DNA of 48,195 bases from Sorangium cellulosum. GTDB taxonomy: Bacteria > Myxococcota_A > Polyangia > Polyangiales > Polyangiaceae. The notes under the pieces were generated by a model, which saw nothing but the letters and a program-made list of their open reading frames with translations, had not been told where the DNA came from and searched no databases. Position 1 is the first letter of the stretch. Each line of letters opens with the position of its first letter. This document shows positions 1-45,298 of the stretch, one piece after another. The stretch covers positions 4,949-53,143 of the forward strand of contig DYPH01000025.1 in the NCBI GenBank assembly GCA_020720045.1, read 5' to 3'. The translations under genes were made by a program, and so were the position numbers.

Positions 1-100
1 CGGACGCGTTGGTTAAGAACTCCGCGCCGTCTCCCGCTTCGCGGACGGACGCGTTGGTTAAGAACTCCGCGCCGTCTCCCGCTTCGCGGACGGACGCGTT
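1..100. repeat. Family A REP-like palindromes, tandem pair
   Basis: Two full copies (18-55 and 63-100) repeat with a 45-base period, and bases 1-10 are the tail of a third. Each copy starts AACTCCGCG, ends CGCGTT, and carries a central hairpin CCGC-TTC-GCGG, so inner and outer arms are inverted repeats. Related copies occur at 605-639, 37760-37796 and 40520-40557. The array lies immediately upstream of the lipoprotein gene at 119. Architecture and dispersal resemble bacterial REP elements; no RAYT transposase gene is visible here. Confidence 0.8.
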
Positions 101-547: not shown

Positions 548-604
548 GTCGTTTTCCCGCCTAGCGCGGGTCGCGGAGCGTCGATTCGTTGAGCGTTTGC
601 ATCG

Positions 605-639
605 AACTCCGCGCCGTCCCGCTTCGCGGACGGACGCGT
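605..639 (+). repeat. Family A REP-like palindrome
   Basis: A single copy of the family seen at 18-100, two bases shorter in the left arm. It lies in the 100-base gap between the convergent lipoprotein and arsH genes, a usual place for REP elements. Confidence 0.75.
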
Positions 640-6241: not shown

Positions 6242-6246
6242 GCGGC

Positions 6247-6373
6247 TGCGCGTCCGCCCGGAACCGCCGAAGGCGGTGAGGAAACGGCGCGCACGACGGC
6301 GGCTGCGCGTCCGCCCGGAACCGCCGAAGGCGGTGAGGAAACGGCGCGCACGACGGCGGCTGCGCGTCCGCCG
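6247..6373. repeat. Family R REP-like palindromes, two and a fraction copies
   Basis: Copies at 6247-6293 and 6304-6350 repeat with a 57-base period, and 6361-6373 is the first 13 bases of a third. Each 47-base copy has ends TGCGCG and CGCGCA and a core hairpin ACCGCC-GAA-GGCGGT. The block fills the gap between two convergent genes and starts just after a stop codon. It could also act as a bidirectional terminator or mRNA stabiliser. Confidence 0.85.
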
Positions 6374-10019: not shown

Positions 10020-10103
10020 GATCGTGATCCAGGATCCGGGAAAGAGTCGGTAACCAACGACGATTGCAGCATCTCGCCCAGGAAGACCGGGCAGCTGCAG
10101 TTC

Positions 10104-10150
10104 TGCGCGCCGTTTCCTCACCGCCTTCGGCGGTTCCAGGCGGACGCGCA
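10104..10150. repeat. Family R REP-like palindrome between pheS and pheT
   Basis: A 47-base copy with intact ends and core hairpin, with one base difference from the 44782 copy in the right arm. The flanks (AGCTGCAGTTC before, GGTGCAGG after) extend the inverted repeat and resemble the flanks of the 44782 copy. It lies in the pheS-pheT spacer, so the transcript would carry this hairpin. Confidence 0.85.
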
Positions 10151-10166
10151 GGTGCAGGAAGTTCGC

Positions 10167-22706: not shown

Positions 22707-22752
22707 AGGCACGGGAGGCTTACGGGAAATCGCGCGACAAGGGAAGTGGAGC

Positions 22753-22778
22753 TGCGCGTCGGCGCGCCGTTTCCTCGG
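22753..22778. repeat. Remnant of a family R palindrome
   Basis: TGCGCGTC is followed directly by GGCGCGCCGTTTCCTCGG. These are the two outer arms of family R with the core hairpin missing, consistent with an internal deletion. It lies between tRNA-Pro and the gene ending at 22780. Confidence 0.45.
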
Positions 22779-30009: not shown

Positions 30010-30483
30010 GAGACTTCCGAACCGACTTCGGAACACTCCCCTCTCCCACCGAGACTGCGGAAGCGACGTTGGGAGCCGAAAAGCGTTGCGGCGAGACTTC
30101 CGAACAGACGCCCGAACGTAGGGGTCTCCGCCGTGAGACTTCCGAACCGACTCTAGTCCCCTCCCCCCTCCTACCGAGACTTCGGAAGCGACGCCCAGAG
30201 GCGGGAGTCTTCCGGCGAGACTTCCGAAGAGGCGACCGAAGACAAAAATCTTCGGTTTGAGACTTCGGAAGCAATTTTTGAAGGCAAAAATCTTCGGATC
30301 GAGACTTCGGAAGCGATTTTTGAAGGCAAAAATCTCCCGATCGAGACTTCCGAACCGAAATTTGAAGGCAAAAATCTCCCGATCGAGACTTCGGAAGCGA
30401 TTTTTGAAGGGGTAGGTCCTCCCGGCGAGACTGGCGAAGTCTCCTTGGAGGCTTCCACCCTCCCGCGGAGACTTCGGAACCGA
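30010..30483. repeat. Twelve-unit phased repeat array, 41-42 base period
   Basis: The 16-base core GAGACTTCSGAASCGA recurs at 30010, 30051, 30093, 30135, 30176, 30217, 30259, 30301, 30343, 30385, 30427 and 30468. Spacings are 41 or 42, which is four helical turns. The core contains CTTC-S-GAAG, an odd-centred palindrome. Two core types occur, TTCCGAAC (copies 1, 3, 4, 9) and TTCGGAAG (5, 7, 8, 10), with the remaining copies mixed or degenerate. Spacers are 25-26 bases; those at 30275, 30317 and 30359 are nearly identical and contain the inverted repeat GATTTTTG...CAAAAATC or close versions. One-base period changes prevent a continuous reading frame. The stretch has no protein gene and ends 45-60 bases before the ATPase start. 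Confidence 0.9.
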
Positions 30484-30527
30484 AGGCATCGTGGAGGGAG
30501 CGGAGGGCTCGCCGCACCAGAGCCTGC

Positions 30528-37106: not shown

Positions 37107-37810
37107 CTATTTGCGGCCGCCAGCGAGATTCCCAAACGCCGCGATCTGCGCGGCAATCGCGGCCCACGCCTCCGAATCGGTGTTCACCACGAGGGACCGG
37201 ACCCGACTCTTTTCGAGCGCCTTTATCCTCCGCGCTTGCGAGGTGCGCAGCGCTTCGAGGGCGTTCGCTTCACTTCCGAAGTGGGGACAAACCCTTGCCA
37301 ATCGGTCCCCCCAAATTCCCGTCGCAGCAACGAACGCTCTCGCAGCCGTTCTTCGGAAATCGCCAAGACGACGACGGAGAATCCCCCGTCGACGAGCCAG
37401 TCATCGAAGACCCGGTAGGGCGACCAATCGCGCTCCTCGGGAAGTGAGCCCGCCGTCTCTCGCGACGCCGCCCCCAGCAAATTCACCGGCGGTCGCGGAC
37501 GGACCGGCTCCTGGGCGTAGTAGGAAAGGTGGAAGCGCTCAATCAGGATTTCTTCGGGTAACTCCTGCCCTGTTGGCCCCGCCGCAAATCGCGCGCACAC
37601 CTCCGTGAGTCGGCGCCGAAAGCCGGGCTGACCGACCTCGAGCATCGCGTCGCCGAAGGTCTCGTCTTCGCTGACGAAACAGGCGGGGAGCCGCCCGCTC
37701 TCACGCAGGGCGCCGATCACGCTCGACTTGCCGGCCCCCGTCACCCCTTCGAGTACGATACGCGTCCGTCCGCGGAGCGGGAGACGGCGCGGAGTTGTCT
37801 GCCGATCCAT
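37107..37810 (-). pseudogene. P-loop nucleotide kinase with late frameshift
   Basis: The N-terminal frame (37810 down to about 37290) gives RIVLEGVTGAGKSSVIGALR, a Walker A of thymidylate-kinase-like proteins, with EEILIERFHLSYYAQEP and a lid-like SEERLRERSLLRREFGG. After GTDWQGFVP a one-base shift at a C4 run (about 37285-37290) moves to the frame ending SEANALEALRTSQARRIKAL and FGNLAGGRK, which completes the expected C-terminal helices. Joined, the protein has about 234 residues. In the uncorrected frame the last residues are a Lys/Arg-rich dead end. The first 14 codons lie in a family A palindrome, so the native start may be later, near the RIVLEGV segment. Confidence 0.65.
37760..37796. 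repeat. Family A palindrome at the 5' end of a kinase gene
   Basis: A reverse-orientation copy that codes for the N-terminal TTPRRLPLRGRT part of the kinase frame. The core reads CCGC-GGA-GCGG in place of the usual TTC loop. The insertion appears to have supplied or replaced the start region of the gene. Confidence 0.7.
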
Positions 37811-39499: not shown

Positions 39500-39886
39500 C
39501 CCGCAACGTAAACCGGGCCGCATTTCTTGCAACAAACTTCACCGTATGGGAGCTTCCTCCCATGGATTCGCCCCCGCTGCGCATCGTCTTTCCGGCAAGC
39601 CCGCTCTCCAAACGCGAGCCCGATCCCGCCTTTGAAGACGAAGTCGCCGCGGCGAAGCAGGCCGGGTTCTCCGTCGGCTTTGTCGGTTTGGAAGGGCCGG
39701 CCGACGAGCCGCTGACGGTGGCGCTCCTCGGTCGCCCCGCGGAAGATCCCCCTGCAGAAACCGCAATTTACCGCGGTTGGCTTCTGCGCCCCGCCGCCTA
39801 CGCGCGTATGGAAGCGGCCCTCGCCGCGCGCGGGGTTGCGCTCTTCACGAACGCCGCCGCCTACCGGCACGCCTACCATCCAATAG

Positions 39887-39933
39887 TGCGCGCCGTTTCC
39901 TCACCGCCTTCGGCGGCTCCGGGCGGACGCGCA
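39887..39933. repeat. Family R palindrome inside the ATP-grasp gene
   Basis: A 47-base copy with both TGCGCG/CGCGCA ends and the core hairpin weakened by one base (GGCGGC for GGCGGT). Eight extra bases, mostly on the left, complete the 55-base interruption. Confidence 0.9.
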
Positions 39934-40519
39934 CTTGCCCGAATGGTACGCCGCCCTCGAAGCGGCAAAACCGGGCATGACGCCGCCCTCGATCTGGTTC
40001 CCGGTTCCGCCCTCAGGATCGACCTTTGATCGCGCGATGATCGCAAGCGAAGTCGCACAGGCCTTTGCCAGTGGGCCGGCGATCGTGAAGGACTACGTGA
40101 AGTCCCGAAAGCACGAATGGTTTGAAGCCTGCTTTATCCCGAGCGCCAGCGATGCGGAGGCGGTGCTCCGGATCACGGAGAGCTTCCTCGCGCTCCAGGC
40201 CGAGGAGTTGGAGGGGGGCCTCGTCTACCGAAAATACGTTCCGTTTCGGGCGGTTGGCCTCCATTCCAAGAGCAAGCTCCCCCTCGTGCGGGAGTACCGG
40301 GTGTTGGTGGTGGCCGGCCAGGTGGCGCTCGTCAGCCGCTATTGGGGCGAAGGGGCCTATGAAGAAACGCCCCCCGATCTCACGCCCTTTCTGCCGCTGC
40401 TCGCCGTCTTTCAAAGCCCCTTTTACGCCCTCGACATCGCCGAAGGGGAGGATGGGCGCTGGTGGGTCGTCGAGATCAATGATGGCGGCGCCGCCGGAAT
40501 TCCCGACGGCATCGCGTCA

Positions 40520-40557
40520 AACGCGTCCGTCCGCGAAGCGGGAGACGGCGCGGAGTT
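40520..40557. repeat. Family A palindrome inside the ATP-grasp gene
   Basis: A full reverse-orientation 38-base copy read in frame as NASVREAGDGAEL near the C terminus, so a second, different palindrome lies in the same gene. Confidence 0.85.
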
Positions 40558-40726
40558 GGATGCAAACGCGTTCTATCAAGCCCTTGCCCGAGCTACGTCC
40601 TCACGTGGCACTGGGTAGCTCCAGTACCGCCCCTGAGCGTACGAGCGCGGAGGCGGCCTGGAAGCCTCCGCGGGCGCCGCCATCGTCCTTGCACCGCATG
40701 CCGACGGACCGATAACGTCAATCGCC

Positions 40727-44496: not shown

Positions 44497-45298
44497 GGGC
44501 GAAACAGGCTATCGCGTTCGTAGAGATCTCGTGGTGCCCGTTCCCCCCCGCTTCCAAGCGCTTCGAATTCCCTTGCGAAATGGGCGTATCGCCCCAGATT
44601 TCGCCGTTGGAATCGGAGAAATCGTCGTGATTCAGGGGCCTTCTGGTTCGGGAAAGTCGACGATGCTCCGCCAGCTTGCCGGCCTCGATCCGCTGCTCCC
44701 GCCTAGCAACGGCGTCGCGAGAGACGGCGGGCCCGTTTCAACAGGGGCCGGCGCCGAGATCCGCCTCGGAAGCTGGAGTTCTGCGCGCCGTTTCCTCACC
44801 GCCTTTGGCGGTTCCGGGCGGACGCGCAGCTGCACCCCCGAGGAATTGCTCGCGATGTCGCCAGCGACCTACCGGCGGCGCGTCGGTTTCGTCGCCCAGG
44901 AGCCGGTCCTCTTCCCGGGGACCGTCGCCGACAACCTCGCCGCCGGGCCCCGGTACCGGGGAGAAGTGCTGGGCCGTGGAGAAAGCGAAGCGCTGCTCGG
45001 GAAGGTCGGCCTCCCGGCGTCGATGCTCCTGCAGGATGCAACCACCTGTTCTGGCGGCGAGAAGCAGCGGGTCGCCCTCGCGCGGGCGCTCGCCAATCGG
45101 CCGGAGGTGCTGCTCCTCGACGAGCCGACGTCGGCCCTCGACGCGATGAGCGCCGAGGCGATCGAGCGCCTGATCGCAACCCTTTCCCAAGAAATTCCGA
45201 TTGTTCTGGTGAGCCATGCGCCGGGCGTCGTCGCACGGCTTTCGGCGTCTCCCGGCCCCGGCGAAAGGGCGCCACGCTGCATCGAGGTGAGGCTTTGA
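44495..45298 (+). CDS. fetA: FetA-like ABC ATPase with a palindrome-encoded insertion
   Basis: The protein has 267 residues. ABC motifs are Walker A GPSGSGKST (about 49-57), Q-loop VAQEP, signature CSGGEKQRVALARAL, Walker B VLLLDEPTSALD and switch His in LVSHAPG. It pairs with FetB downstream, overlapping it by four bases, as in the FetAB iron exporter of enterobacteria. Residues about 96-111 are translated from a family R palindrome (SARRFLTAFGGSGRTR), absent from normal FetA, placed between Walker A and the Q-loop. The reading frame is kept, so activity is possible. ATG at 44495 overlaps a divergent start; GTG at 44531 is an alternative. Confidence 0.85.
   Translation: MGETGYRVRRDLVVPVPPRFQALRIPLRNGRIAPDFAVGIGEIVVIQGPSGSGKSTMLRQLAGLDPLLPPSNGVARDGGPVSTGAGAEIRLGSWSSARRFLTAFGGSGRTRSCTPEELLAMSPATYRRRVGFVAQEPVLFPGTVADNLAAGPRYRGEVLGRGESEALLGKVGLPASMLLQDATTCSGGEKQRVALARALANRPEVLLLDEPTSALDAMSAEAIERLIATLSQEIPIVLVSHAPGVVARLSASPGPGERAPRCIEVRL
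44782..44828. repeat. Family R palindrome inside fetA
   Basis: A 47-base copy with intact ends; the core is GCCTTTGGC rather than GCCTTCGGC. The flanks AGCTGGAGTTC and GCTGCAC resemble those of the copy at 10104. It is translated in frame. Confidence 0.9.

Follow-up and report, generated by a model that had tools for sequence, protein, structure and literature searches.

Results

A family R palindrome separates two halves of an ATP-grasp gene

The window, that is, the whole 48,195-nucleotide stretch of Sorangium cellulosum DNA analysed here, carries on its plus strand an R2K-type ATP-grasp gene in two halves. As judged from the sequence, its frames and the orthologue alignment, the N-terminal half spans positions 39562 to 39879 and ends with AYRHAYH. 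The C-terminal half starts with LPEWY, lies in another frame and spans positions 39935 to 40618, where it matches the R2K_3 ATP-grasp domain (PF14243, E 4e-36). Between them are 55 bp (CCAATAGTGCGCGCCGTTTCCTCACCGCCTTCGGCGGCTCCGGGCGGACGCGCAC, 39880-39934, plus strand), a length that is not a multiple of three, and the frame of the N-terminal half, followed from 39562, runs through them to a stop at 40029. The original prediction, that 55 extra bases split this gene and leave its second half in another frame, holds when the gene is set against orthologues from the same family, the same order and other phyla (Paludisphaera and Dictyobacter). These read AYRHCHHLPEWY, QYRRTHHLPEWY, QYRHCHHLPDSY and AYTHCHYLPESY, with H (or Y) directly adjoining L and zero residues between. 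Since the residues on either side are adjacent in the orthologues, the insert is real, with a net length of 55 bp.

The segment might have been a natural linker of the protein family, all the more as the frame of the N-terminal half crosses it for about 50 codons without a stop. This reading is virtually untenable: the orthologues from the family, the order and the other phyla have nothing at the site, the segment is a genome-wide repeat, and the second half of the gene is out of frame.

Most of the insert is a family R palindrome, whose core covers 48 bases (39886-39933, plus strand; the earlier count was 47) and is 98% identical to the other copies in the window. The assignment also draws on the genome census and on the predicted hairpin, which has a z-score of -3.4 and was equalled by 0 of 200 shuffles. 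No clean target duplication is seen at this copy, as the flanking 8-mers, TACCATCC on the left and GCACTTGC on the right, agree at only 3 of 8 positions; the right-hand one matches GCAGCTGC at 6 of 8. The gene was not found in the congener G001, and there is thus no close empty site for this copy.

Further downstream the same gene holds a family S palindrome of 45 bp on the minus strand (about 40527-40571), which the first reading of this DNA had missed. Aligned with an orthologue (L006) that reads GVPEGGDVETFY, the window reads GIPDGIASN[15 aa]AFY, in frame, and a direct repeat, CAAACGCGT, occurs at 40518-40526 and 40563-40571.

Families R, S and T are found in one genus

The source genome is a 6.34 Mb draft in 357 contigs; several of the repeat arrays lie where a contig ends. 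Our detailed census covers about 360 kb of fetched loci, in which 205 copies lie at 133 separate loci, and is complemented by genome-wide pattern counts. The R core (GCGCCGTTTCCTC) occurs six times exactly in the window, and seven sites have at most one mismatch, against 0.49 expected from shuffles. Over the genome we count 66-72 copies of the full R element and 0 matches for a reversed-pattern control. By species the tally is 72 R copies in this genome, 27 in G001, the sole other member of the genus found by search, and 0 in 142 other relatives. The S core gives 260 genome matches, against 7 for its reversed control. Its plan is that of R, with a left arm ...GCGCCGTYTCC and a right arm ...CGGACGCG; the flank consensus is GCAGCTGCAGTTCT for R and ACGCGTTTGCAGAG for S. 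Family T and a fourth family also fold better than shuffled sequence, and S, taken as a 46-base unit, folds no better than its shuffles.

Besides the ATP-grasp copy, the window has four more full R copies and a truncated one. Two identical 57-bp R units stand head to tail at 6242-6355 (minus strand), and single copies lie at 10090-10156 (plus strand, flanked by AGCTGCA and AGGTGCA) and at 44769-44825 (plus strand). Only the left end is kept at 22750-22776 (plus strand), where a reversed right end (GCTGCGCGTC) is fused directly to the left half, as if from a hairpin rearrangement. Two S copies stand head to tail with a 45-bp period at positions 1-98 (plus strand), and others lie at 604-638 (plus strand) and 37760-37796 (minus strand). 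Family T is present at 37429-37514 (minus strand) and as a fragment at 44710-44748 (plus strand). The fourth family, of about 36 bp (TTCTCCGATCCGGCGTCTCGCCGGGCGGAGACA), was seen at positions 1157-1230 of locus L030 and beside S copies in L149, L170 and L177; it often adjoins S and is apparently in frame in host proteins, with the peptide FSDPASRRAETTAS.

The window has tandem repeats as well. A 24-bp repeat (CAACCCGGCTACGGACAACCGGGA) in about four copies at 356-456 probably codes for a QPGYGQPG protein repeat. A 42-bp repeat (GAGACTTCGGAAGCGATTTTTGAAGGCAAAAATCTCCCGATC and variants), also in about four copies, occupies 30010-30485, with related 41-42 bp repeats upstream.

At the gathering threshold, Rfam returned only two tRNAs for the window and no RNA family at the elements, so that a known RNA family was rejected. 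Searches for similar phage or plasmid DNA, made with short queries, likewise found none, and such an origin was set aside. We are confident that the genus has its own set of three or more related families (R, S and T among them) of short, non-autonomous, hairpin-forming mobile elements, and that the 55-bp insert is one R copy.

Most repeat units are multiples of three, and copies in genes normally keep the frame

The spacing of same-orientation neighbours is 57 bp in 17 of 21 R pairs and 45 bp in 47 of 48 S pairs. T arrays are mostly of 75 bp, and the T unit is about 75 bp in G001. All three lengths are multiples of three, and neighbours of the same family stand head to tail in all but one pair. 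Because the units are divisible by three, copies within genes normally keep the reading frame.

With a gene finder based on codon usage and trained on the fetched loci, 32 arrays lie 60 bases or more deep in an open frame, a search through open reading frames that favours in-frame cases. They include the R copy of the ATP-grasp gene, which as a whole is not in frame, and a few others in weakly scoring frames. In up to about 8 further loci, abutting open reading frames in different frames could be disrupted genes. Several in-frame copies fall within Pfam domains, namely in a threonine synthase, a YggS-like protein (Ala_racemase_N), a PhzF-like protein, a RecC-like protein (Exonuc_V_gamma) and a trypsin-like protease, and others within linkers of kinases and of a sigma-54 activator. 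The in-frame status was checked directly for the R copy of an ABC-transporter gene, against the congener, and for the S copy of the ATP-grasp gene, against orthologues.

The peptides predicted to be encoded by the elements in host proteins include ASVREAGDGAEF and NSAPSPASRTDAF. The use of the six S frames, told by peptide, is uneven (8/7/4/2/0/0; chi-square p about 0.007 in a tally without three of the cases), and the two unused frames are the arginine-richest. All 7 cases of R in the anti orientation use a single stop-free frame; of the two remaining frames, one contains a stop codon.

Intragenic copies are thus normally in frame: about 30 preserve that of the host gene and use a subset of the six frames. 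The frameshifting 55-bp R copy is an exception among them. Gene disruption as the habit of the element is not supported. Nor does a length not divisible by three speak for mobility; the evidence for it lies in the uninterrupted orthologues and in the empty sites described below.

The exceptional length calls for its own account. With the insertion itself real, the frameshift (55 instead of 57 bp) may be an error of assembly or consensus, the genome being a draft where the repeat is present about 70 times. The 357 contigs with several arrays at their ends, the 57-bp norm and the good condition of both halves of the gene, which are otherwise open, still coding-like and well conserved against the orthologues, would all agree with such an error. 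Yet the left junction is locus-specific and no simple copy of another site, and R spacings of 56, 59 and 61 occur elsewhere, so non-multiples of three do exist. On balance we consider the error rather unlikely. With no other interruption in either half, a real lesion is a recent one; otherwise it is an assembly error. Its source may be a later loss of 2 bp, an imprecise insertion or the assembly.

Empty sites in the congener match exactly one unit

Across the colinear stretches compared, G001 and the window are mostly about 90-97% identical. In the ABC-transporter ATPase gene, the R copy at 44769-44825 is in frame, exactly 57 bp long and exactly absent in G001, as seen in the congener alignment and with outgroup proteins. 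G001 reads CCTTGGCAGCTGCACC and the window CCTCGGAAGCTGGA...GACGCGCAGCTGCACC. The direct repeat has its right copy, GCAGCTGCA, at 44826-44834 (plus strand) and its left copy, GAAGCTGGA, at 44769-44777, and G001 has GCAGCTGCA once. The outgroup ABC proteins are without the R segment, and for this reason the simplest reading of the alignments is that this copy would have been gained in the present lineage. The same part of the gene (44663-44830) holds the T fragment and the R copy within about 120 bases; it corresponds to a short loop in the outgroup proteins, and G001 too carries additional residues at this place.

At two other sites G001 lacks an S copy, the difference being exactly 45 bp; GACGCGTTTG or ACGCGT is present once when the site is empty and once on each side when it is filled. 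More generally, the empty site bears a single copy of a motif, GCAGCTGC for R and ACGCGT for S, that is found once per side, sometimes altered, when the site is filled. Of the three sites that are empty in G001, two are not polarised and may reflect either insertion in this genome or loss from G001. One R array differs between the two species by 114 bp, or 2x57. The R copy at 10090 has a counterpart at the matching position in G001 and others are absent there, so that both older and younger copies exist. That the element enters genes and is, or recently was, mobile is therefore upheld by presence or absence of exactly one unit against a congener 91-93% identical at the locus.

Discussion

How the elements may move

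We propose that an enzyme acting in trans would insert the element beside or within a short palindromic motif. Each insertion would add whole codons, and the host protein would gain a segment of 15 or 19 residues and often survive. Slippage, or recombination of one flanking repeat with another, could then expand and contract the arrays. R would have entered the ATP-grasp gene likewise; the frame would have been lost either during an imprecise insertion or later, when 2 bp close to the left repeat disappeared. On the assumption of a 57-bp insertion beside GCACTTGC, the left repeat would have lost two bases and changed one; other histories also fit.

The flanking repeats bear on the nature of such an enzyme. 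Left-right agreement in single-copy loci is 61% for R, against 52% when shuffled (p<0.0005), and 60% for S, against 57.5% (p 0.016); of the two repeats, the right-hand one shows the higher conservation. Because left and right agree only weakly within loci, the element itself contributes part of the right repeat, and the pair is not necessarily a genuine target duplication. A plain duplication was not accepted as it stands, since at variable positions the right-hand S repeats do not track the left ones. The flanking repeats suggest one of two modes: duplication of the target, or insertion beside a target similar to the end of the element itself, the latter being the mode of insertion of IS200/IS605 elements.

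A Y1 (IS200-like) transposase could mobilise R, S and T as single-stranded hairpins and insert them 3' of a target matching their 3' end, the repeats being target plus element end. Matches to Y1-transposase genes number 12 in this genome and 14 in G001, a genus-level expansion. The greater conservation of the right-hand repeat is expected if it is in part element, and same-orientation head-to-tail arrays would follow naturally. Of the 22 Y1 loci that we inspected, most lack R, S or T flanks. S or T lies within 400 bp of the gene in about 6, but none has the elements on both sides within that distance, and the conserved flanks of the Y1 genes are their own, unrelated to the three families. The covariation of the R repeats within loci also stands against this mechanism, as does GC skew, a weak test, in which there was no signal of a strand preference relative to replication. 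We regard mobilisation by Y1 as a possibility worth retaining, short of a probable one.

The Y1 element itself has conserved upstream (CCCCCCTGGCCCGGGCCAGGCAAATTCG) and downstream (GAATTGAATAGCGCGGGACAGGCTCTCGAAAGGGGGTCTGTTTCCGCGCGTC) sequences. Copies lie on contigs C219, C132, C83, C305 and others of this genome (L259-L267) and at L271-L279 in G001, and the one on C336 has a 13-residue in-frame insert within the transposase gene itself.

Alternatively, R, S and T may be miniature derivatives (MITEs) of an insertion sequence, with a transposase that duplicates 8-10 bp of a palindromic target. The direct repeats GMAGCTGSA, GACGCGTTTG and ACGCGT, which flank elements missing in G001, and the covariation of the R repeats would fit this. 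The weak covariation in S does not, nor does the fact that no long element with R ends was noticed in the draft genome, where 83 exact left R ends compare with 72 complete short elements. We hold this origin to be possible, if somewhat doubtful.

Comparison with known palindromic elements

Rickettsia palindromic elements (RPEs) are palindromes of about 150 bp that lie in frame in protein genes (PMC10969869). Like them, the elements described here form several families of short palindromes, in frame in many unrelated genes, and supply an extra peptide to the host protein; by this analogy, R, S and T appear to work as RPEs do. The comparison concerns form and position in genes. The units here are shorter (45, 57 and about 75 bp), form head-to-tail arrays of regular period and have GCAGCTGC or ACGCGT repeats at their flanks. 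The hosts of RPEs are alphaproteobacterial endosymbionts, whereas the present one belongs to a myxobacterium-like order.

REPs have been recorded inside genes in several species (PMC3733652). As in the GTAG/CGTC-tagged REPs (PMC3733652), we see small hairpins in tens to hundreds of copies, with a patchy distribution and some intragenic members, and the term "REP-like" first applied to the insert is apt for shape and copy number. It goes no further: the R and S flank consensus has no conserved unpaired GTAG or CGTC end tag, dimers are head-to-tail, unlike the mainly head-to-head dimers of tagged REPs, and no RAYT gene flanked by the repeats is present. With the REPIN/RAYT system, or REPtrons (PMC3116915, PMC6006769), our genome shares the co-occurrence of hairpin repeats and relatives of the Y1 tyrosine (HUH) transposase. 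A REPtron was nevertheless rejected, as the Y1 genes are multi-copy, keep their own conserved flanks and as a rule lack R, S or T on either side.

MITEs (PMC10969869) are similar in being short and non-autonomous, with imperfect inverted arms and direct repeats at their ends. They differ in that no parent insertion sequence was found in this draft, and in that the arms here are bulged and asymmetric, not clean terminal inverted repeats. A literature search of incomplete coverage found no earlier report to the point in myxobacteria.

R, S and T differ from the known systems in three respects: their head-to-tail arrays are regular, with a period divisible by three, the flanking motif is a palindrome, and the host belongs to another group. 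We tentatively put forward that the length of these palindromes, together with the flanking repeat, is held to whole codons in three or more families, which would let them settle in genes and give proteins short peptide tags that do not destroy them, as selfish DNA adapted to coding sequence and comparable to the Rickettsia RPEs. In-frame spread of palindromes through protein genes has been known chiefly from Rickettsia, and from intragenic REPs. The present elements would add a second, unrelated group of bacteria, in which presence and absence can be read between species, the target motif is visible and the unit lengths are multiples of three, and the lone out-of-frame copy in the ATP-grasp gene would give a picture of the failed case. 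This opens the way to asking by what means such elements move, and whether host proteins tolerate the added peptides or make use of them.
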